From contig NZ_LFIO01001780.1 in assembly GCF_001187535.1 (NCBI RefSeq), positions 62,001 to 126,000 on the forward strand: 64,000 nucleotides of DNA, read 5' to 3'. The stretch is from Rhizobium ecuadorense. Lineage in GTDB: Bacteria > Pseudomonadota > Alphaproteobacteria > Rhizobiales > Rhizobiaceae. Positions 5,720-52,100 of the stretch are shown piece by piece. The notes under the pieces were generated by a model that did no database searches, was not told where the DNA came from, and worked only from the letters and a program-made list of their open reading frames with translations. The position numbers were made by a program, and so were the translations under genes. Each line of letters starts with the position of its first letter. Position 1 is the first letter of the stretch.

Positions 5720-6439
5720 ATGCAGGATATGGATTCATGGCTGTCAGAGAAGAAAGAGATCGGCCGGAGAAACGCTGCCGAAGCGGTCTTCGAAGATATC
5801 CGCACCGCCATTGTTGGTCGGAAACTGGCGCTTGGCACCCGTCTTCCCGCGGAGGTGCAGCTCGCCGAACGTTACGGCATCAGCCGGGCGATCGTGCGTG
5901 AGGCGCTTCGCTCGCTGCAGACGCTGGGGTTCACGCAGACCCGAAGCGGCCGGGGCACCTATATCGTTTCGGAAAGCCCGGCGCGGCAGCTCGGCGGCGG
6001 CGCCTATTCCGCCCGCGATCTCATGGAGGCGCGCCCCTGCATCGAGATCCCGGCTGCGGGTTGGGCGGCATTGCGGCGCTCGAACGAGCAGCTGGCGTCG
6101 CTCTCATCCTTGTGCGACCGGATGGATGAGGAGGACGACGTCCAGACATGGGTGCGGATGGACGCCGAGTTCCATGGAGAGATCGCCGAAGCCTCGGGCA
6201 ATGCGATCTTCCGAAAAGTCGTCGCCGATGTCCGCGGCGCGCTTTCGACGCAATCGGAACTGGTGGAGCATGTTCGCGGCCGGCGCAAAGCCTCCAACGC
6301 CGAGCACCGCCGCATTCTCCGGGCCGTTGCCGCGGGCAGCGAGAGGGATGCGCAGGCCGCGATGGCCGAGCATCTGCTGGAGGTCAAGCGTTCCATCATC
6401 GGGATTGCCGATGAAAGAGGGACTGCGCCTAAGGTATGA
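5720..6439 (+). CDS. FadR-type GntR-family transcriptional regulator (paralogue 1)
   Basis: This 239-residue regulator has an N-terminal winged helix (LPAEVQLAERYGISRAIVREALRSLQTLGF, then the wing RSGRGTYIV) and a C-terminal all-helical FCD ligand domain. The FCD metal-ligand pattern is visible in DAEFHGEIAEASGN and a late EHRRIL histidine. It follows the peptide ABC/ureidoglycine operon by 73 bases and precedes a close paralogue by 51 bases, so it could serve either the upstream operon or the downstream asparagine genes. The start could also be the ATG at 5729 (MDSWLSE). Confidence 0.88.
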   Translation: MQDMDSWLSEKKEIGRRNAAEAVFEDIRTAIVGRKLALGTRLPAEVQLAERYGISRAIVREALRSLQTLGFTQTRSGRGTYIVSESPARQLGGGAYSARDLMEARPCIEIPAAGWAALRRSNEQLASLSSLCDRMDEEDDVQTWVRMDAEFHGEIAEASGNAIFRKVVADVRGALSTQSELVEHVRGRRKASNAEHRRILRAVAAGSERDAQAAMAEHLLEVKRSIIGIADERGTAPKV

Positions 6440-6490: not shown

Positions 6491-7195
6491 ATGAATGATC
6501 TGGAAAACTGGCTTTCCGACTCCGCGATCCTCAGTCGAAAAAGCGCCTCGGAACTGGTGTTCGAGGAATTGCGCAATCTCATTGTCTCCGGCCGGTTTGC
6601 CGAAGGTTCCAAGCTGCCGTCGGAAGCCAAGCTCGCGGCAAAATACGGCGTCAGCCGTCCGATCGTGCGGGAAGCGCTGCGCTCGCTGCAGATTTTGGGG
6701 CTGACGGAGACGCGAACGGGAAGCGGAACCTATGTGCTCGCGGCTGGCGGCGGCGGAGATATCCGTTACGGCGATTATTCGGCGCGTGATCTGGTGGAGG
6801 CGCGGCCCTTCGTCGAAGTATCCGCTGCCGGCTGGGCAGCGCTGCGCCGGAGCGACGATGAGCTGTCCCGGCTGCTTCGCCTTTGCGACCGGATGGAGCA
6901 GGAACAAGATACCGAGGCTTGGGTGCGGCTGGATTCGGATTTTCACGGGCTGATCGCCGAAGCTTCGAAGAACGCCGTCTTCCGCGATATCGTCGATGAC
7001 GTCCGCGAGGCGATGGCGCAGCAATCCGGGCTGCTGACCGCCTTGGGGCCACGCCGTCAGGAATCGAATGAAGAGCATCGCGCCATCGTCGAAGCCATTC
7101 GCATAGGGGCGGAGACCGAGGCTCAGGCAGCGATGGAAATCCATCTCAGGAAGGTCGCGGCGGCTGTCAGCCGCATCATCGGCATCGAGCTCTGA
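6491..7195 (+). CDS. ansR: FadR-type GntR-family regulator, probable asparagine operon repressor AnsR
   Basis: This 234-residue protein is a second FadR-type regulator with the same layout as its upstream neighbour: winged helix (LPSEAKLAAKYGVSRPIVREALRSLQILG) and an FCD domain with DSDFHGLIAEASKN and EEHRAIV. The two share long near-identical stretches such as YSARDLVEARPFVEVSAAGWAALRRS versus YSARDLMEARPCIEIPAAGWAALRRS, so they arose by tandem duplication. In R. etli the asparagine operon is preceded by the GntR-family repressor gene ansR. Its position just before ansP here supports that name, but which paralogue does the job is an inference. Confidence 0.72.
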   Translation: MNDLENWLSDSAILSRKSASELVFEELRNLIVSGRFAEGSKLPSEAKLAAKYGVSRPIVREALRSLQILGLTETRTGSGTYVLAAGGGGDIRYGDYSARDLVEARPFVEVSAAGWAALRRSDDELSRLLRLCDRMEQEQDTEAWVRLDSDFHGLIAEASKNAVFRDIVDDVREAMAQQSGLLTALGPRRQESNEEHRAIVEAIRIGAETEAQAAMEIHLRKVAAAVSRIIGIEL

Positions 7196-36073: not shown

Positions 36074-37111
36074 TTAGGTCGAAAGCCAGCCCTTGACCGC
36101 TTCCGCGACCTTTCCGGTCGAAAGGCCGTATTGGTCGTGAAGGGTGGGCAATGCGCCCGCATCCAGAAACTGGTCCGGCAGCCCGATCTGACGAAAGGCC
36201 GGCGGCGCGGCACCGGCGCGCAGCAGCGTGCCGGCGACAGCCTCGCCGAGGCCTCCGATCACGGTGTGGTTCTCCGCGACGACCACCAGGCGGCCGCCTT
36301 TGCGGGTTTCTCTGATGATTGCTTCCTCATCGAGAGGTTTGATCGTCGGCACGTGCAGTACGGCCGCGTCCACGCCGTCCCTCTGGAGTTGCTTGGCGGC
36401 TTCCAGTGCGCGCATCGTCATGAGGCCGGAGGAAATGATCAGTGTGTCACGACCGTCGCGGATCAGCTTTGCCTTCCCGATCTCGAATTTATAACCATAT
36501 TCCTCGAGGACGACCGGTACGTTGCCACGAAGCAGCCGCATGTAGACGGGACCCTTATGAGCTGCGATCGCGGGAACCGCCTGCTCGATCTCACTCGCAT
36601 CGCACGGATCGATGATCGTCAGGTTCGGCATCCCCCGGAACATCGCGAGATCTTCCGTTGCCTGGTGGCTCGGCCCGTAGCCGGTGGTTAACCCCGGAAG
36701 GGCGCAGACGATCTTCACGTCGAGCATTTCTTCGGCGATGGCGAGGCATATGAAATCATAAGCCCGCCGTGATGCAAAAACGGCGTATGTCGTAACCCAG
36801 GGCTGGAACCCTTCGCGCGCCATGCCGGCTGCCGACATCATGAGGAGCTGTTCAGCCATTCCCATCTGGTAGAAGCGGTCCGGGTGGGCGGCGCGAAAGA
36901 CGTGCAGGTCGGTATATTTCGCCAGGTCGGCAGACATGCCGACAACCCGATCGTCCTTCCGGGCGAGTGCGGCGAGCGCATTGCCGAACGGTGCTGCTCT
37001 GGTCGGCTGATCTAGTCCCGCGATCGATGCTATCATCGCCGAGGTCGTCAGACGAGGTTTGTCGCGGCCATTTTCCAAATGCGTCGGGCGGATGTATTTC
37101 GAACGTCTCAT
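36074..37111 (-). CDS. Transketolase-like protein, C-terminal subunit
   Basis: This 345-residue protein carries the pyrimidine-binding and C-terminal domains of transketolase (MSADLAKYTDL ... RFYQMGMAEQLLMMSAAGMAREG ... ALPGLTTGYGPSHQATEDLAMFRGMPNLTIIDP). The Glu of MAEQ is the cofactor-activating glutamate. Its ATG overlaps the stop of the N-terminal subunit gene by four bases, so the two halves form one enzyme. The first 30 residues are a hydrophilic extension. Split transketolases of this kind often act in dedicated sugar pathways rather than in the pentose phosphate cycle. Confidence 0.9.
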   Translation of the reverse strand: MRRSKYIRPTHLENGRDKPRLTTSAMIASIAGLDQPTRAAPFGNALAALARKDDRVVGMSADLAKYTDLHVFRAAHPDRFYQMGMAEQLLMMSAAGMAREGFQPWVTTYAVFASRRAYDFICLAIAEEMLDVKIVCALPGLTTGYGPSHQATEDLAMFRGMPNLTIIDPCDASEIEQAVPAIAAHKGPVYMRLLRGNVPVVLEEYGYKFEIGKAKLIRDGRDTLIISSGLMTMRALEAAKQLQRDGVDAAVLHVPTIKPLDEEAIIRETRKGGRLVVVAENHTVIGGLGEAVAGTLLRAGAAPPAFRQIGLPDQFLDAGALPTLHDQYGLSTGKVAEAVKGWLST

Positions 37112-45568: not shown

Positions 45569-46486
45569 TCACTCCTTCACCGCACCCGTCATCGAGGACA
45601 CGTAATAATCGACGAAGAACGAGTAGAGGATGACCACCGGCAGCGAGCCGAACAGAGCGCCCGCCATCAGCGCCCCCCATTCGAAGACATCGCCGCGCAC
45701 CAGTTCGGTCAGCACGCCGACGGGAATGGTTTTATTCTCCGATGACTGAATGAAAGTAAGGGCATAGATGAATTCGTTCCAGGACAGCGTGAAGGCGAAG
45801 ATGCCGGCCGAAATCAGCCCCGGCACGGCGAGCGGCAGGATGATCTTGGTGAGAATCTGCCACCGGTTGGCGCCGTCCACCAGCGCGCTTTCCTCCAGCT
45901 CGAACGGGATCGAGCGGAAATAACCCATCAGCAGCCAGGTGCAGAAGGGAATGAGGAAGGTCGGGTAGGTGAAGATCAGCGCCAGCCGGGAATCATAGAT
46001 GCCGAGCTTGAAGACGATGAAGGCAAGCGGGATGAAGAGGATCGACGGCGGCACGAGATAGGCGAGGAAGATCACCAGGCCGACCGAACGCGAGCCGGTG
46101 AAGCGGACGCGCTCGATGGCATAGGCGCCCAGGACCGACGCCACCAGCGAGAGGAAGGTGGAGCAGACCGCCACCAGCATCGTGTTCCACAGCCAGCCCG
46201 GATAGGATGTCTCGAGGAACAGGTATTTGATGTGCGCGATCGTCGGCCCCACCACCCAGAACGGGCTGTAATTGCTATAGTCGGTCAGCTGCTCGTTGGG
46301 TTTCACCGCGGTGATCGCCATCCAGTAAAACGGGAAGAGCAGCACGAAGACGAAGACGGCCATCGGCAGATAGAGCATCACGATCCGCCGCGGCAGACGG
46401 TTCAGATAGCTCATGCCTTCGGCATTGTCGGTCACGACCTGGTCGGCGGTGTTTGCCTGATGAGCGGTGTTCGAATGTGTCGACAT
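45569..46486 (-). CDS. CUT1-family carbohydrate ABC transporter permease (MalG-like)
   Basis: This 305-residue permease has a hydrophilic N-terminus, six membrane helices and the MalG-type EAA motif near the C-terminus (EESALVDGANRWQILTKIILPLAVPG). The conserved PFYWMAITAVKPNEQ region follows the first helix. ATG 46486 is seven bases after AGGAG; ATG 46492 is too close to it. It is the last gene of an operon with a FadR regulator, a DenD-like dehydrogenase, an ATPase, a binding protein and MalF. Confidence 0.92.
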   Translation of the reverse strand: MSTHSNTAHQANTADQVVTDNAEGMSYLNRLPRRIVMLYLPMAVFVFVLLFPFYWMAITAVKPNEQLTDYSNYSPFWVVGPTIAHIKYLFLETSYPGWLWNTMLVAVCSTFLSLVASVLGAYAIERVRFTGSRSVGLVIFLAYLVPPSILFIPLAFIVFKLGIYDSRLALIFTYPTFLIPFCTWLLMGYFRSIPFELEESALVDGANRWQILTKIILPLAVPGLISAGIFAFTLSWNEFIYALTFIQSSENKTIPVGVLTELVRGDVFEWGALMAGALFGSLPVVILYSFFVDYYVSSMTGAVKE

Positions 46487-46496
46487 CGTCATTCTC

Positions 46497-47429
46497 CTAA
46501 TCTTGGCCGCCCTGCTGCCATTTGCGCCGCTGCAGGCCGAAGAAGCTGAACATGATCGCGCCGAGCAGGAAGGGCACCATGGCAACGGCGATCGCCGCAC
46601 CCTCGCCCAGCTGGCCGCCGGGAATGCCGCGCTGGAACGAGAGCGTCGCCATCAGATGCGTCGCGTTGACGGGGCCGCCCTTGGTCAGCACGTAGATGAG
46701 TTGGAAATCGGTAAAGGTGAAAAGCACCGAGAAGGTCATCACGACGGCGATGATCGGCGTCAGCATCGGCAGCGTCACATAGCGGAAACGCTGCCAGCTG
46801 GTGGCACCGTCGAGTGAGGCTGCCTCCTGCAGCGACGCCGGGATGGTCTGCAGCCCCGCAAGCAGCGAGATCGCCACGAAGGGAATGCCGCGCCAGACAT
46901 TGGCGACGATGACGGATATGCGGGCATTGATCGGATCGCCGAGGAAGTTGATCGGTCCGCTGATCAGCCCCAGCTTCATCAGCGACCAGGAGATGATCGA
47001 GAACTGCGAATCGTAGATCCACCAGAAGGCCAGCGCCGAAAGCACCGTCGGCACCACCCAGGGCAGCAGGACGATCGCCCGGAAGAAGGATTTGTAGGGC
47101 AGGTGCTGGTTGAGCAGCATCGCCAGCCAGAGGCCGAGCGCGAATTTCAGCACAGAGGCGACGAAGGTATAGAGAATGGTGTTGAACACCGACAGCCAGA
47201 AGACCGAGTCATCCATCAGGAACTGATAGTTCTCCAGCCCGATGAAGATGCCGTCGCGGCCGATCCTGGTGTCGGTGAAGCCGAGCCAGACGCCGAGCCC
47301 CAGCGGGTAGGTGAGAAAGCAGACGAGGAACACCGCCGCCGGCAGCATGAACAGGAAGCCGAGCACATTGTTGTTCTGCAGGAGCGAAGAGACCGGCCCA
47401 CGTCCATTCCCCGAATTTGCCATCGACAT
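46497..47429 (-). CDS. CUT1-family carbohydrate ABC transporter permease (MalF-like)
   Basis: This 310-residue permease has six membrane helices and the EAA motif QEAASLDGATSWQRFRYVTLPMLTPI. The N-terminal helix context (LGFLFMLPAAVFLVCFLTYPLGLGVWLGFTD) is the MalF/UgpA pattern. GGAG precedes ATG 47429 by about eight bases. The next gene, the MalG partner, starts 10 bases after its stop. Confidence 0.92.
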   Translation of the reverse strand: MSMANSGNGRGPVSSLLQNNNVLGFLFMLPAAVFLVCFLTYPLGLGVWLGFTDTRIGRDGIFIGLENYQFLMDDSVFWLSVFNTILYTFVASVLKFALGLWLAMLLNQHLPYKSFFRAIVLLPWVVPTVLSALAFWWIYDSQFSIISWSLMKLGLISGPINFLGDPINARISVIVANVWRGIPFVAISLLAGLQTIPASLQEAASLDGATSWQRFRYVTLPMLTPIIAVVMTFSVLFTFTDFQLIYVLTKGGPVNATHLMATLSFQRGIPGGQLGEGAAIAVAMVPFLLGAIMFSFFGLQRRKWQQGGQD

Positions 47430-47576: not shown

Positions 47577-48881
47577 TCAGACGCGATAGTAGCGGTTGGC
47601 CCGGCGCTCAGCTTCCTTCATCGCATCCTCCGGCGACATCTGGCCGGTGACGGCGGCGGCGTACATGTCGACCAGAACATAATCGGCCATGGTTGCCGCC
47701 GAGGCGTAGCCGAGCGGGCCGGCATAACCGTTCGGGCGCAGTTTTTCCGAGGCGCGTGCATAGGGCGCGTGGACCGGATCGGCGGTCCAGATCGGGTTCT
47801 TGGCGAAGGCCTTGAGCGGCTGGCAGCAATAGGCGCTGGAGCCCTGGATCCAGGCATTCATCTGGTCGGCTTCCATCATGAACTTGATGTAGGCCTTGGC
47901 CGCCTCAGGATATTTTGTGTGCTTGAAGAGCAGCAGCGAACTCGTCTGGCAAAGCTCGACGCTCTTGCCGACCGGGCCGATCGGGAAGTTCGTGGTGCGG
48001 ATATCCTTGGCGATCTCGGCGAGTTTCGGGTCGTTCTTGGCGGTGTAATAGACCGAGACGCCGTTGGCGATCAGCGAGACCTGGCCGGCGAGGAACGCGC
48101 GGTTGTTGTTGACGTCCTGCCAGCTTTCCGTGCCCGGAATGAAGGTCGCATAGAGCTCCTTGGCATAGTTGATCGAAGCCAGCGTTTCGGGGCTGTTGAT
48201 CGTCACCTTGCCGCCTTCGTCGACCATCTTGCCGTTATGGCTCCAGAGCAGCCAGTGGGCATAATTGTTGCCGTCGCCGACCGCCTTGCCGTGCGGGAAG
48301 CCGGCGGGCGTGCCCTTTGCCTTCATCGCCTTGCAAAGCTCGAGGAAGCCTGCGGTGTCGTTCGGGAATTCGTTGAAACCGGCGGCCTTGACGTGGCTGT
48401 CGCGATAGACGACGGCATTGCCGATCGCCGTCAGCGGCATGGCGATGAAGGTGTCGCCGCGTGTCGCGTACCCCTTCACGCCGTCGTACCAGCCCTCATA
48501 CTTGTTGCCGAGATAGTTGCCGAGTTCGGTGAGATCGACCAGCTTGTCCGGATATTGGTGGGCGTCGTCGAACCAGCACATGATGAGATCCGGGCCGGAG
48601 CCGACATTGGCGGCAACGGCAGCCTTCGGGCGGATGTCTTCCCAGCTTTCCTTGTCGATGCGCACTTCGACGCCGGTCGCTTCGGTGAACTTCTTGGTGT
48701 TGGCGATCCAGGCCTCCTCGTCGCCCTTGACGAAGGGCGTCCAGCGCAGCAGCCGCAGGCTGGCGCCGCTTTCCGGCGTGTAGGTCGGCTCGGCCTGCGC
48801 AAAAGATGGCTTGATGCCGAAGCCGGCAGCGCCGGCAACGGCTGCCGATGCAGCAAGAAATTCACGTCTCTTGATCGTCAT
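47577..48881 (-). CDS. CUT1-family ABC transporter, periplasmic binding protein
   Basis: This 434-residue protein has a twin-arginine-type signal (KRREFLAASAAVAGAAGFGIKPSFAQA, cleavage near residue 30) and a type II binding fold like UgpB/MalE (LRLLRWTPFVKGDEEAWIANTKKFTEATGVEVRI; GSGPDLIMCWFDDAHQYPDKLVDLTEL). The start at 48881 follows AGGAGGAATCTC. Ligands of relatives include polyols and oligosaccharides. The neighbouring dehydrogenase gene hints at a C4 or similar polyol or acid, but this is not proven. Confidence 0.9.
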   Translation of the reverse strand: MTIKRREFLAASAAVAGAAGFGIKPSFAQAEPTYTPESGASLRLLRWTPFVKGDEEAWIANTKKFTEATGVEVRIDKESWEDIRPKAAVAANVGSGPDLIMCWFDDAHQYPDKLVDLTELGNYLGNKYEGWYDGVKGYATRGDTFIAMPLTAIGNAVVYRDSHVKAAGFNEFPNDTAGFLELCKAMKAKGTPAGFPHGKAVGDGNNYAHWLLWSHNGKMVDEGGKVTINSPETLASINYAKELYATFIPGTESWQDVNNNRAFLAGQVSLIANGVSVYYTAKNDPKLAEIAKDIRTTNFPIGPVGKSVELCQTSSLLLFKHTKYPEAAKAYIKFMMEADQMNAWIQGSSAYCCQPLKAFAKNPIWTADPVHAPYARASEKLRPNGYAGPLGYASAATMADYVLVDMYAAAVTGQMSPEDAMKEAERRANRYYRV

Positions 48882-48921
48882 GAGATTCCTCCTCATTGAA
48901 ACAGCGGGAGCAATTCTCCGG

Positions 48922-49038: not shown

Positions 49039-50106
49039 TCAGTCGGTCAATCTCTGTCCGCCTTCGGCATCGAAGAGATGGACGTGCGAAGCGTCGATCG
49101 CCACGCGGATCGCTTCGCCAGGGCGGGCATTGACGCGCTCCCGGAACACGCAGCTGACATCGCTGCCGCCGAGGCGAACGGTCAGATGGGTCTCATAGCC
49201 GGTGGGTTCGATCACCACGATCTCGGCCGGCACACCGTTCGGATCGAGCGAGATATATTCGGGGCGCAGCCCATAGACGAGTTCGCGGCCCACCGCACTT
49301 GCCGGCGGATCGGCGACGGGCAGCCGCGTGCCGTTGGCGGCGACGAACTGGCGGACGTCTTCCGGATCGAGCCTGCCCTTGATCATGTTCATCGCCGGCG
49401 AGCCGATGAAGCCGCCGACGAAGAGATTGGCCGGCTTGTCGTAGAGCTCCAGCGGCGATCCGATCTGTTCGACGATGCCGTCATGCATGACGACGATCTT
49501 GTCGGCCATGGTCATCGCCTCGATCTGGTCGTGGGTGACGTAAACGGTGGTGGTTTTCAGCCGCTGGTGTAGCTCCTTGATTTCGGCGCGCATGGCGACG
49601 CGCAGCTTGGCATCGAGGTTGGAGAGCGGCTCGTCGAACAGGAAAACTTCAGGATCGCGCACGATCGCCCGGCCCATGGCGACACGCTGGCGCTGGCCGC
49701 CGGAAAGCTGGCGCGGATAGCGGTCGAGCAATTTGTCGAGGCCGAGGATGCCGGCGGCATATTTCACCCGCTTTTCGGCCTCTGCCTTCGGCGCCTTGTT
49801 GAGCATCAGCGAGAAGCCCATGTTCTGCTCGACCGTCATATGCGGATAGAGCGCATAATTCTGGAACACCATGGCGATGTCGCGGTCCTTCGGCGGCAGC
49901 GTGTTGACCACGCGTCCGCCGATCTTGATCTCGCCGCCGGAAATGTTCTCGAGCCCCGCCAGCATCCTGAGAAGGGTCGACTTGCCGCAGCCCGAGGGGC
50001 CGACGAGGATGACGAATTCCCCATCGGCAACGTCGATGTCCACCCCCTTGATGACAGGATGCACACCGAAGGATTTCCGCACATCCGCGAATTGAACGCC
50101 TGCCAT
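49039..50106 (-). CDS. CUT1-family ABC transporter ATPase (UgpC/MalK-like)
   Basis: This 355-residue ATPase is a single-domain MalK-type subunit that would form a homodimer. It has Walker A GPSGCGKST, Q-loop VFQNYALYP, signature LSGGQRQRVAMGRA, Walker B VFLFDEP and the switch histidine in YVTHDQIEAM. The C-terminal TOBE-type regulatory domain (from about 235) is complete. ATG 50106 is seven bases after GGAGG. It is encoded upstream of its binding protein and permeases in the operon. Confidence 0.94.
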   Translation of the reverse strand: MAGVQFADVRKSFGVHPVIKGVDIDVADGEFVILVGPSGCGKSTLLRMLAGLENISGGEIKIGGRVVNTLPPKDRDIAMVFQNYALYPHMTVEQNMGFSLMLNKAPKAEAEKRVKYAAGILGLDKLLDRYPRQLSGGQRQRVAMGRAIVRDPEVFLFDEPLSNLDAKLRVAMRAEIKELHQRLKTTTVYVTHDQIEAMTMADKIVVMHDGIVEQIGSPLELYDKPANLFVGGFIGSPAMNMIKGRLDPEDVRQFVAANGTRLPVADPPASAVGRELVYGLRPEYISLDPNGVPAEIVVIEPTGYETHLTVRLGGSDVSCVFRERVNARPGEAIRVAIDASHVHLFDAEGGQRLTD

Positions 50107-50257
50107 ACTCACTCCTCCCAGAAATCGAGCGCTACATGCTTATGTCTTCGTATCTCACTCTGTCTTGCCGGCGGCTGTCATCTCTCCCAAGTCCTTCAGC
50201 CGCCGCAATCCCGCATCTGTGGGGGTGGGCCCCGGGCGGGCCCCCCTCCCCCTCTCC

Positions 50258-51250
50258 TCAATCGCCTCGCGGCGCAGCCGGAGCGTCCTCGGCGAGGTAG
50301 ACCTCGATCAGCTCGTCGACGCTGGTTTCGGCGGAAAAACCCAGTTGCGTCGCGCGTTCAGGCGCAAAGGATTTCGGCCATCCCGCGACGATCCCTTCGA
50401 TGACCTCGTCGCGGCGGCGGTCGATCAGGTCGACCGCCTCGGGGCCGGCAGCCCGGCGCAACGCGGCGATCTGATCGGCAACGGTGGCGGCGACCCCCGG
50501 CATGGTGAGCGTGCGCCGCGCACCCAGCGACGACGTGTCGAGCGTTGCGGCGTGGATCAGAAATTTGACGGCGGAACGCGGGCTTGCCAGCCAGTGTTTG
50601 ACCGTTTCCTCAACGGGAAGAACAGCCCGCTGGCCGGCCAGCGGCTCCCGCAGGATTCCGGAAAAGAAGCCCGATGCGGCGGCATTCGGGGCACCCGGCC
50701 GGATCACGATGGTCGGCAATCGAATTCCCACGCCGTCGATGAAGCCGCGGCGCGAATAGTCGGCCAGCAGGAGTTCGGATATCGCCTTCTGCACGCCGTA
50801 GCTGGTGAGCGGCGCCTGGACGTAATCGTCGGGGATCGGATCGGGAAACGGCGAACCGTAGACCGCGATCGACGAGGAGAAGACGAGCCGGGGAACATAG
50901 GCTTGCCGGCTTCCCTCATGACGGATCGCTTCCAACAGCAATCGCGTGCCATCGAGATTGACCCGGTAGCCGAGGTCGAAATTGCGCTCGGCCTCGCCGG
51001 AAACGATCGCGGCGAGATGGAAGATCACGTCGGCGCGGCGAGCCGCCAGGGCTGCCGCTGCATCGCCTTCGGAAATATCGGCCGCCAGCGCTTCGACCGA
51101 GGCAACCACGCCTGATGGCACCGGCGGTGGGGCGATATCCACAAGCGTCATGCGGGTGATCGTTCGAGCGCCGAGGGAACCGCTGCGCGCCAAGCTGGCG
51201 GCGAGCTTCCGGCCGATCATTCCGCCCGCCCCGATAATGAGAATATGCAT
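50258..51250 (-). CDS. NAD-dependent epimerase/dehydratase family, DenD-like (D-erythronate dehydrogenase)
   Basis: This 330-residue protein has an extended SDR fold: NAD-binding GAGGMIG at the N-terminus, LVDIAPP at the end of strand 2, HLAAIVSGEAERNFDLGYRVNLDGT, and the catalytic Tyr-Lys in YGVQK. The segment IRLPTIVIRPGAPNAAASGFFSGILREPLAGQ is characteristic of D-erythronate dehydrogenase (DenD), which oxidises the 2-hydroxyl of a four-carbon sugar acid. The kinase, decarboxylase and isomerase of that pathway are not nearby. It shares an operon with a FadR-type regulator and a CUT1 transporter, so a related sugar or acid is the likely inducer and substrate. Confidence 0.75.
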   Translation of the reverse strand: MHILIIGAGGMIGRKLAASLARSGSLGARTITRMTLVDIAPPPVPSGVVASVEALAADISEGDAAAALAARRADVIFHLAAIVSGEAERNFDLGYRVNLDGTRLLLEAIRHEGSRQAYVPRLVFSSSIAVYGSPFPDPIPDDYVQAPLTSYGVQKAISELLLADYSRRGFIDGVGIRLPTIVIRPGAPNAAASGFFSGILREPLAGQRAVLPVEETVKHWLASPRSAVKFLIHAATLDTSSLGARRTLTMPGVAATVADQIAALRRAAGPEAVDLIDRRRDEVIEGIVAGWPKSFAPERATQLGFSAETSVDELIEVYLAEDAPAAPRGD

Positions 51251-51301: not shown

Positions 51302-52033
51302 CTAGGCCAGGAGCAGCTTGGTCGTGGTATAAATGCGGGTTTCATGGATCGCGAAGGCCGCGCATGCGGCGTCCGGATCCCGCGTCTCCAGGCCGGCGAG
51401 GATCAGCCGGTGATCGGCGATGCTCGTGGCGATCGTGCCGGGCTGCGATACGACGCGCCTGCGGTGGCTCAGAAGATAGGAGTAAAGATCGGCGGCCATA
51501 TCGGCGAGCACCGCGTTGCCGCTGGACCGGTAGATGGCGGTGTGAAATTCCCGGTCGCAGATCAAAAAACGGACGGGATCGTCACAGGCGGCTTCCTGGG
51601 CTGCGATCGACTTGCCGAGATAATCAAGCGTCGACGCTTCCATCTTGACCGCGGCGGCCCTGACGACCTGCGCTTCGATCAGCAGCCTCGCCTCATGAAC
51701 ATTGTCGAGACTATAGGCCGCGATGTCGCGATAGCGCGCCGCCTGTACAGCCAATTCGCCGACATCTTCCGATGCCACCACCGTGCGCGTTCCCTGCGCA
51801 ACCGAGAGAATTCCATGGGTGGAAAGGATAAGGATCGCGCCGCGGACGGTCTCGCGGCTGACCGAAAGCGCGCCAGCCAGCTCCCGTTCGCTGGGCAGCG
51901 GATCGCCTGTCTTGAGGATGCCGGTGGCGATGAAGGTCGCGATTTTCTGGACGACGAAGTCCTTCATCGACTTCTTCGGCGCTCCCTCAAGCGTCGCAAC
52001 CTCTTCGAGCATGGCTCGCACATCCATCGCCAT
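51302..52033 (-). CDS. FadR-type GntR-family transcriptional regulator
   Basis: This 243-residue regulator has a winged helix (LPSERELAGALSVSRETVRGAILILSTHGIL) and a C-terminal FCD domain (CDREFHTAIYRSSGNAVLADM, IADHRLIL) that usually binds a small carboxylate or sugar acid with a metal. It is the first gene of the DenD/CUT1 operon. Two starts are possible: 52033 and 52027; the second has better spacing from GGAGG. A 17-base inverted repeat covering the promoter lies directly upstream, pointing to autoregulation and control of the whole operon. Confidence 0.88.
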   Translation of the reverse strand: MAMDVRAMLEEVATLEGAPKKSMKDFVVQKIATFIATGILKTGDPLPSERELAGALSVSRETVRGAILILSTHGILSVAQGTRTVVASEDVGELAVQAARYRDIAAYSLDNVHEARLLIEAQVVRAAAVKMEASTLDYLGKSIAAQEAACDDPVRFLICDREFHTAIYRSSGNAVLADMAADLYSYLLSHRRRVVSQPGTIATSIADHRLILAGLETRDPDAACAAFAIHETRIYTTTKLLLA

Positions 52034-52039
52034 GCCCTC

Positions 52040-52100
52040 CCCCTGAGGTCTACTGGTCCGGTAAGTGGGCCAGTAGACCTCAGGGGCAATGGATTGTCAA
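52040..52100 (-). promoter_or_regulatory. Promoter and 17-base inverted repeat (operator) of the FadR-DenD-CUT1 operon
   Basis: On the minus strand TTGACA (52100-52095) and TCTACT (52077-52072) are separated by 17 bases, a good promoter. A perfect inverted repeat, CCCCTGAGGTCTACTGG (52040-52056) and CCAGTAGACCTCAGGGG (52070-52086), has one arm over the -10 element and the other just after the start site, reaching into the ribosome-binding site. The 13-base loop would hold the transcription start. This fits an operator for the adjacent FadR-type repressor; as RNA only part of it could fold. Confidence 0.75.

Follow-up and report, generated by a model that had tools for sequence, protein, structure and literature searches.

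A perfect inverted repeat with two arms of 17 bases lies across the promoter of a denD-containing CUT1 transporter operon of Rhizobium ecuadorense, within the window, the stretch of 64,000 nucleotides analyzed here, to which all coordinates refer. We infer with high confidence that this repeat is the autoregulatory operator of the GntR/FCD-type regulator encoded directly downstream of it, at which the protein would bind and repress, in the favored form as at least two dimers, until a sugar acid released it. The repeat itself, a conserved motif within it, the position of this motif at the promoter, and steps of 8 bp between half-sites were found by computation. In the proposed mechanism, repressor dimers would, without inducer, occupy the core ACTGGCC-N9-GACCAGT (52052..52074, minus strand; family consensus ACTGGTC-N9-GACCAGT). 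Because this core overlaps both the -10 box and the predicted start, RNA polymerase would be blocked for the regulator, denD, and the transporter together. At least two adjacent dimers would bind in a NanR-like manner, each placing one domain on a strong half-site and its second domain on a weak slot beside it, and an inducer, probably a sugar acid (D-erythronate or a relative) bound at the FCD metal site, would release them.

Regulator gene, operon, and inverted repeat

The regulator gene (243 aa; 51302..52033, minus strand), whose product is the presumed repressor of the operon, is followed on the same strand by denD, encoding D-erythronate dehydrogenase (50258..51250; NCBIfam NF043036, 373 bits against a cut-off of 325), and by genes for a UgpC-type CUT1 ABC transporter ATPase (49039..50112), the solute-binding protein of the transporter (47577..48896), and its two permeases (46497..47429 and 45569..46600, the true start of the latter probably lying later than given). 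A preliminary description of this DNA had proposed a FadR-DenD-CUT1 operon, and the profile matches agree with it for the regulator, the dehydrogenase, the ATPase, the binding protein, and both permeases. The upstream neighbor of the regulator gene is ligD, which is on the same strand rather than divergent. Since no acid-sugar kinase was found among the eight window proteins scanned, a full D-erythronate pathway is not demonstrated at the locus.

The regulator carries Pfam GntR (56.6 bits, cut-off 27) and FCD (76.1 bits, cut-off 24.3) domains, which places it in the FCD (FadR) subfamily of the GntR family. Its best NCBIfam match is the NanR model, at 123 bits and below the cut-off of 260, so that it does not qualify as a NanR; the FadR model gives 25 bits (cut-off 189), and the nearest PDB sequence is that of NanR (phmmer, 5.9e-16). 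The AlphaFold model (mean pLDDT 84.6) retrieves McbR, NanR, DhdR, Atu1419, and FadR in Foldseek at E <1e-5, with a domain arrangement that differs from these matches, since whole-chain TM scores are only 0.40–0.55. A stretch of about 19–22 residues, modeled with low confidence, precedes the HTH. R50, R60, and R64, together with D160, H164, H208, and H230, are invariant in 20 of 20 regulator homologs, and the last four, which correspond to the pattern of Asp or Asn plus three His, form a putative FCD metal site by analogy with PMC7797058.

Among the matches listed for the regulator protein, the closest named record is from Rhizobium redzepovicii (98%), and another genome of the same genus reaches 99%. 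In R. johnstonii 3841, the same operon sits on plasmid pRL12; guessed old locus tags for that locus gave no literature match. Two neighboring genes, at about 5768–6373 and 6533–7162 of the window (contig 67768–68373 and 68533–69162), encode proteins distantly related to the regulator (32% and 27% identity). The Rhizobium loci L153, L137, L049, L142, L144, and L146–L149 have the same operon start and operator, and ligD was not found within 1.5–3 kb upstream in them, so the operon and its promoter occupy different genomic places. At L010, L051, and L124, where the regulator is 77% identical and the operator similar, denD was not found in the fetched flank; the regulators of L010 and L051 adjoin what appear, by eye, to be a sugar-type periplasmic binding protein and an ATPase.

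The arm that is distal to the promoter in gene orientation covers 52040..52056 (plus-strand letters CCCCTGAGGTCTACTGG) and the proximal arm 52070..52086 (plus-strand letters CCAGTAGACCTCAGGGG). The two are perfect 17+17 complements, extend inward to 20 bases at 95%, and enclose a spacer of 13 bases (52057..52069). Among 18 perfect inverted repeats of at least 10 bases with loops of at most 40 in the 64-kb window, this is the only one longer than 12 bases, the next-longest having 12, and the maximum in 20 first-order surrogates of the window is 14; the repeat described earlier across the operon promoter is thus confirmed and exceeds what chance provides. With up to three mismatches, the arm matches the host genome at eight places, of which two are the exact arms themselves and the other six carry two or three mismatches, so it is no dispersed repeat.

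The promoter elements were likewise found where the preliminary description had placed them. The -35 box TTGACA (52095..52100, minus strand) stands 17 bases from the -10 box TCTACT (52072..52077, minus strand), which lies within the proximal arm. In an alignment of 29 distinct operator rows from close relatives (88–100% identity), TGACA is invariant in all 29 and the -10 box reads either TCTACT (27) or TCTAGT (2). Judged from the -10 box, transcription is predicted to start at about 52064–52066, inside the spacer, and the distal arm follows this start and touches the ribosome-binding site GGGGGAGGG (52043–52035, minus strand) ahead of the ATG start codon of the regulator (52033–52031, minus strand). 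No promoter in the region passed the rules of a sigma-70 scan, because these demand an A at position 2 of the -10 box, TCTACT matching TATAAT in 4 of 6 positions; a terminator scan returned two terminator-like sites, neither of which is the 17+17 repeat. Relative to the predicted start, the operator core would extend from about -9 to +14 and the whole repeat from about -21 to +26.

Proposed operator motif in regulator homologs

Homologous loci were drawn from 26 of 199 genomes of the family (own genome included), from the best 80 loci of a further scan, from 57 of 148 genomes of the genus (own included; 30 became loci), and from two of four genomes in the genus of a relative. There were 136 loci oriented by tblastn, 63 of them at 40–60% identity, and 50 remained after similar upstream regions had been removed. 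These 50 nonredundant distant homologs, from which the window and its close relatives were excluded, served as the motif training set. The top exact word paired with its own reverse complement was ACTG-N15-CAGT, present in 26 of 50 upstream regions (maximum of 5 in 100 shuffles), and an unsupervised symmetric motif search yielded ACTGGTC-N9-GACCAGT ahead of 49 of the 50 regulator genes, with a log-likelihood ratio of 525 against 37–45 in four shuffled sets. The motif scores at least 11 in 48 of the 50; L030 reaches 6.3 (GTGGTC...GACCAC) and L088 has none.

Within the 64-kb window, the motif scores highest at the operator core, 52052–52074, with 16.2 nats, followed by a site of 9.2 nats, against a mean of -26.4 and a standard deviation of 8.4. 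A site above 11 nats lies upstream of the regulator in 101 of the 104 loci with more than 40% identity, and none occurs in 318,375 shuffled positions. Counted by distinct upstream sequence, some genomes being present twice, the motif is found in 90 of 92, and in 42 of 42 without a training locus. The loci lacking a good site are L030, its duplicate L079, and L088. The repeat also stays with the regulator where ligD was not found in the fetched upstream flank (for example, L153, L137, L049, and L142). This consistent association among relatives, together with its rank within the window, supports the role predicted for the repeat in the preliminary description, that of an operator for the FadR-type product at the operon promoter.

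In 44 of 48 distant relatives, the 45 nt preceding the operator contain a TTGACA-like -35 box (5 or 6 of 6 positions), against 7 of 48 in a downstream control of the same length, and the gap between the box and the operator is 19–30 bases in 37 of these 44. In the distant relatives, the operator usually spans the -10 region to about +20. Judged from sequence, a repressor excluding RNA polymerase would be placed in just this way.

The 104 loci hold 15 motif matches elsewhere, which we take to be second operators of the same regulons. Seven loci (L022/L062, L023, L024, L060, L063, and L086) have a second motif match 349–401 bases upstream of the regulator match; they form one denD subgroup, in which L022 and L062 look like one genome, and the second motif match perhaps serves a divergent operon. 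Further matches lie 2710–2841 bases upstream in L087–L089 and 1802–1847 bases downstream of the regulator start, the latter just after denD in two loci (probably one genome) in which denD was found. L162 and L168, which are one genome, have two exact-consensus operators that are nearly identical and separated by about 2 kb, one ahead of the regulator and one after denD. The four gaps scanned within the window operon contain no second operator (best 0.0 nats). The second-best match of the window, at 36169–36191 (ACTGGTCCGGCAGCCCGATCTGA, 9.2 nats), could be due to chance; it lies inside the 3' part of an apparent transketolase-subunit ORF and upstream of an apparent TRAP-type binding-protein gene (both named by eye).

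Genome-wide, the pattern is not enriched: ACTGG-N13-CCAGT occurs at 4 sites in the own genome, against 5 for a reversed-pattern control, and across 397 order-level genomes the exact consensus has 15 sites where the reversed pattern has 23. Only 3 of these 15 sites adjoin a homolog, and two of the three lie in one denD locus. GGTCTAC by itself matches 350 places and is far too common.

Half-site spacing and the long arms

The strong half-sites of the family are symmetric about one center and nearly equal (mean scores 9.34 and 9.75). In the window, they are the forward half-site F0 (ACTGGCC, 52068..52074, minus strand; score 8.03) and the reverse half-site R16 (ACTGGTC, 52052..52058, plus strand; score 11.98). 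Weaker slots accompany them, namely the middle slot F8 (ACTTACC, 52060..52066, minus strand; 1.76), the outer slot F-8 (TGAGGTC, 52076..52082, minus strand; -0.95), and its mirror R24 (52044..52050, plus strand; -0.95), where the 95th percentile of control slot scores is -3.0; that the outer slots score only -0.95 counts against a multi-dimer reading. Across the family, 15 of 48 sites have an extra half-site scoring above 4 at +8, and 18 of 48 have a reversed one at +23 (at most 7 in permutations); F8 and R24 exceed the control 95th percentile in 32 and 31 of 48, respectively. Exact CTGG/CCAG pairs have inverted spacings of 5, 13, and 21 in 15, 18, and 6 of 50 upstream regions, and TGGT is repeated directly at an offset of 8 in 8 of 50.

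Half-sites are therefore closely repeated at a defined spacing of 8-bp steps, as looked for in a NanR-like arrangement of several dimers, with some signal off the grid. Reverse half-sites at +11 (14 of 48) and a CTGG inverted spacing of 8 (9 of 50) mean that the grid is not the sole signal; forward +20 half-sites are found in 7 of 48, and the off-grid slots F20, R4, and R-4 also exceed the control (31, 22, and 23 of 48), an excess that overlap with the main half-sites explains at least in part. At least two dimers are favored because the strong half-sites stand 8 bp wider than in the FadR palindrome and weaker ones recur at the same step. The binding of two dimers raised in the preliminary description is possible on these grounds and by analogy with NanR, the number of dimers being one that we infer. 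As for its emphasis on long perfect arms, rarer than typical FadR sites, the arms are real, but the recognized unit is the widely conserved ACTGGTC-N9-GACCAGT and not the long arms. A broader proposal, in which our confidence falls a little short of even, is that the denD-linked FCD branch has an operator grammar of its own: FadR half-sites on an 8-bp grid, a strong pair that skips a slot (GT-N11-AC), two overlapping dimers as the smallest unit, and, in Rhizobium, an array extended by one slot on each side into a perfect repeat of 17–18 bp.

In the 29 close-relative rows, invariant columns make up 26 of the 33 in the range 21–53 and 9 of the 40 outside it. The 18-pair stem formed by the arms has standard pairs in 92.0% of cells; all 18 pairs are perfect, with a 7-base loop, in 8 of 29 rows, and the window has one A.C in this stem. 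Two-sided changes affect four pairs (a number reached in 34 of 500 shuffles) and 21 cells (0 of 500), and the covariation score lies above all 500 shuffles, a level that related sequences can reach without structure. Outer-arm bases vary within Rhizobium, often symmetrically; if the outermost bases belonged to a fixed protein site, their sequence, and not just their symmetry, would be expected to stay the same. Among the relatives at 77% identity, L010 keeps 13 perfect pairs and L051 and L124 have a broken version; at 68% (L052), the outer arm is lost. The longest unbroken stem in 48 distant sites is 3–7 pairs in 43, 9 in four, and 12 in one.

These patterns lend some weight to the idea that function resides in the 23-bp core alone and that the outer arms (to 17–18 bp) are a by-product kept symmetrical by template-switch (quasipalindrome) mutation; we regard this as a credible possibility, if a rather doubtful one. 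Template switching is described as a cause of concerted stem changes in PMC8794818, and the two-sided changes in the stem include one, A:T to T:A in L149, that falls on a single short end branch of the regulator-gene tree. The poor consensus match of the outer half-sites, the loss of the outer arm in L052, and the short stems of most distant sites point the same way. Against it, none of the 29 rows alters either side of the three TCT/AGA pairs beside the core, and the outer GGTC, which both arms retain in 26 of 29 rows (L150–L152 change it), lies at a distance of exactly 8 bp from its inner counterpart. The change in L149 moreover improves the half-site (TCTGGTCT, 9.2, against TCAGGTCT, 3.1): the outer half-sites become CTGGTC, and each arm then contains two exact copies of this hexamer 8 bp apart. 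Template switching would fit the outermost symmetry well, and extra dimers would fit the retained GGTC. The perfect long arms are a clade-specific elaboration, part of whose symmetry may have come from template-switch mutation. In R. johnstonii 3841 (L047), the regulator gene groups with L146 and L139, whereas the operator bases match the other subclade (L131 and L143), which suggests recombination between promoter and gene.

The core might instead be spanned symmetrically by a single FCD-GntR dimer with repositioned DNA-binding domains, which we consider unlikely. The symmetry and near-equality of the two strong half-sites would suit such a dimer, and the linking helices of NanR are described as changing direction on DNA (PMC8012715), but it is at odds with the GT-AC spacing of 2–3 nt described for the FadR subfamily (PMC4494728) and with the family half-sites that also occur at +8 and +24. 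An RNA hairpin, put forward in the preliminary description as an additional role, would form in the leader or in ligD read-through RNA and hide the ribosome-binding site. Were the whole region transcribed, the fold would reach -43.5 kcal/mol (z -6.15) and end at the ribosome-binding site; ligD does lie upstream on the same strand, and the stem pairs covary in close relatives. RNA from the predicted start, however, contains one arm alone (-5.1 kcal/mol, z +1.45). In mRNA sense, the stem (18 pairs, 29 rows, 522 cells) carries 28 A.C, 14 other mismatches, and 6 G.U, so that one-sided changes give A.C rather than the G.U looked for in a hairpin, though covariation is present; the A.C excess represents few events, because 16 of the 28 cells are at one pair. 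Moreover, the unbroken stem is down to 3–7 pairs in 43 of 48 distant sites though the motif stays, the repeat is kept where ligD was not found upstream, and the Rfam matches at a relaxed threshold, to one sRNA and three miRNA models, fall far short of the gathering scores. With the start predicted in the spacer, the hairpin role is not supported and appears very improbable.

Promoters generally can carry sites for several factors. It seems more improbable still that the repeat serves a different regulator or is a palindromic element of the dispersed kind: we found no point in favor of either, the motif goes with this regulator gene in 101 of 104 loci, and the genome has no copy with fewer than two mismatches apart from the two arms.

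Comparison with known FCD-type regulators

As an autoregulatory operator, the repeat would provide a testable site for a group of sugar-acid repressors of rhizobia and their relatives and make regulon prediction possible. In the openly licensed literature on GntR/FCD regulators and denD, as far as it was accessible, no report of an ACTGGTC-N9-GACCAGT operator was found, nor was a characterized member of this sugar-acid repressor group in rhizobia and relatives. Neither CTGG nor FadR occurs as a term in PMC11387232, and the FadR consensus was not found in the accessible part of PMC4537474.

E. coli FadR is likewise a GntR/FCD-type protein, with low similarity to the window regulator by the NCBIfam score given above, and its fadL and fadBA probes share the half-site CTGGT[C/A] (PMC4259882). 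The halves of those probes are separated by 1 bp (GT-N3-AC); here the separation is 9 bp (GT-N11-AC), 8 bp wider. For the FadR subfamily, PMC4494728 describes sites with a GT-AC spacing of 3 nt, or 2 nt in several groups, and, for the FadR, HutC, and YtrA subfamilies, weaker extra half-sites 7–12 nt from the center. The TKGT/ACMA boxes of FadR-subfamily operators are present in the family consensus as TGGT...ACCA (TGGC on one side in the window), but the family motif has GT-N11-AC in place of the 2–3 nt spacing; some members also have a GT-N3-AC pair, formed solely by the weaker F8-R16 arrangement. Seen from the center of that pair, the extra boxes here lie at about 11.5 nt, as in the described sites; the extra box described there is weaker than the palindrome, whereas here the outer F0 scores above 4 in 48 of 48 sites and the inner F8 in 15 of 48. 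The repressor family and its function are ordinary, and the spacing variant departs from the described FadR-subfamily rule.

Atu1419 of Agrobacterium (VanR group) is also an FCD/GntR repressor; its palindromes lie at promoter elements, and its metal site consists of one Asn and three His where the window regulator has D160, H164, H208, and H230 (PMC7797058). It differs in binding as a tetramer to separate 10-bp palindromes, for which looping is proposed, and a wide-spaced operator was not found in the accessible part of that report.

NanR, the closest PDB relative and best NCBIfam match of the regulator, is described as binding the repeat operator (GGTATA)3 as three dimers, a dimer sitting asymmetrically with one domain on the consensus and the other on neighboring non-consensus sequence, and with cooperativity that depends on a 32-residue N-terminal extension (PMC8012715). 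The two systems are alike in their closely repeated half-sites, a likeness drawn irrespective of step length. They differ in that the NanR half-sites are direct GGTATA repeats and the strong ones here inverted CTGGTC, and in that the extension of 32 residues compares with about 19–22 residues before the HTH here. If the grid reading is true, FadR-type proteins would move from one palindrome to a multi-dimer array while keeping the same half-site, which would link the binding modes of FadR and NanR.
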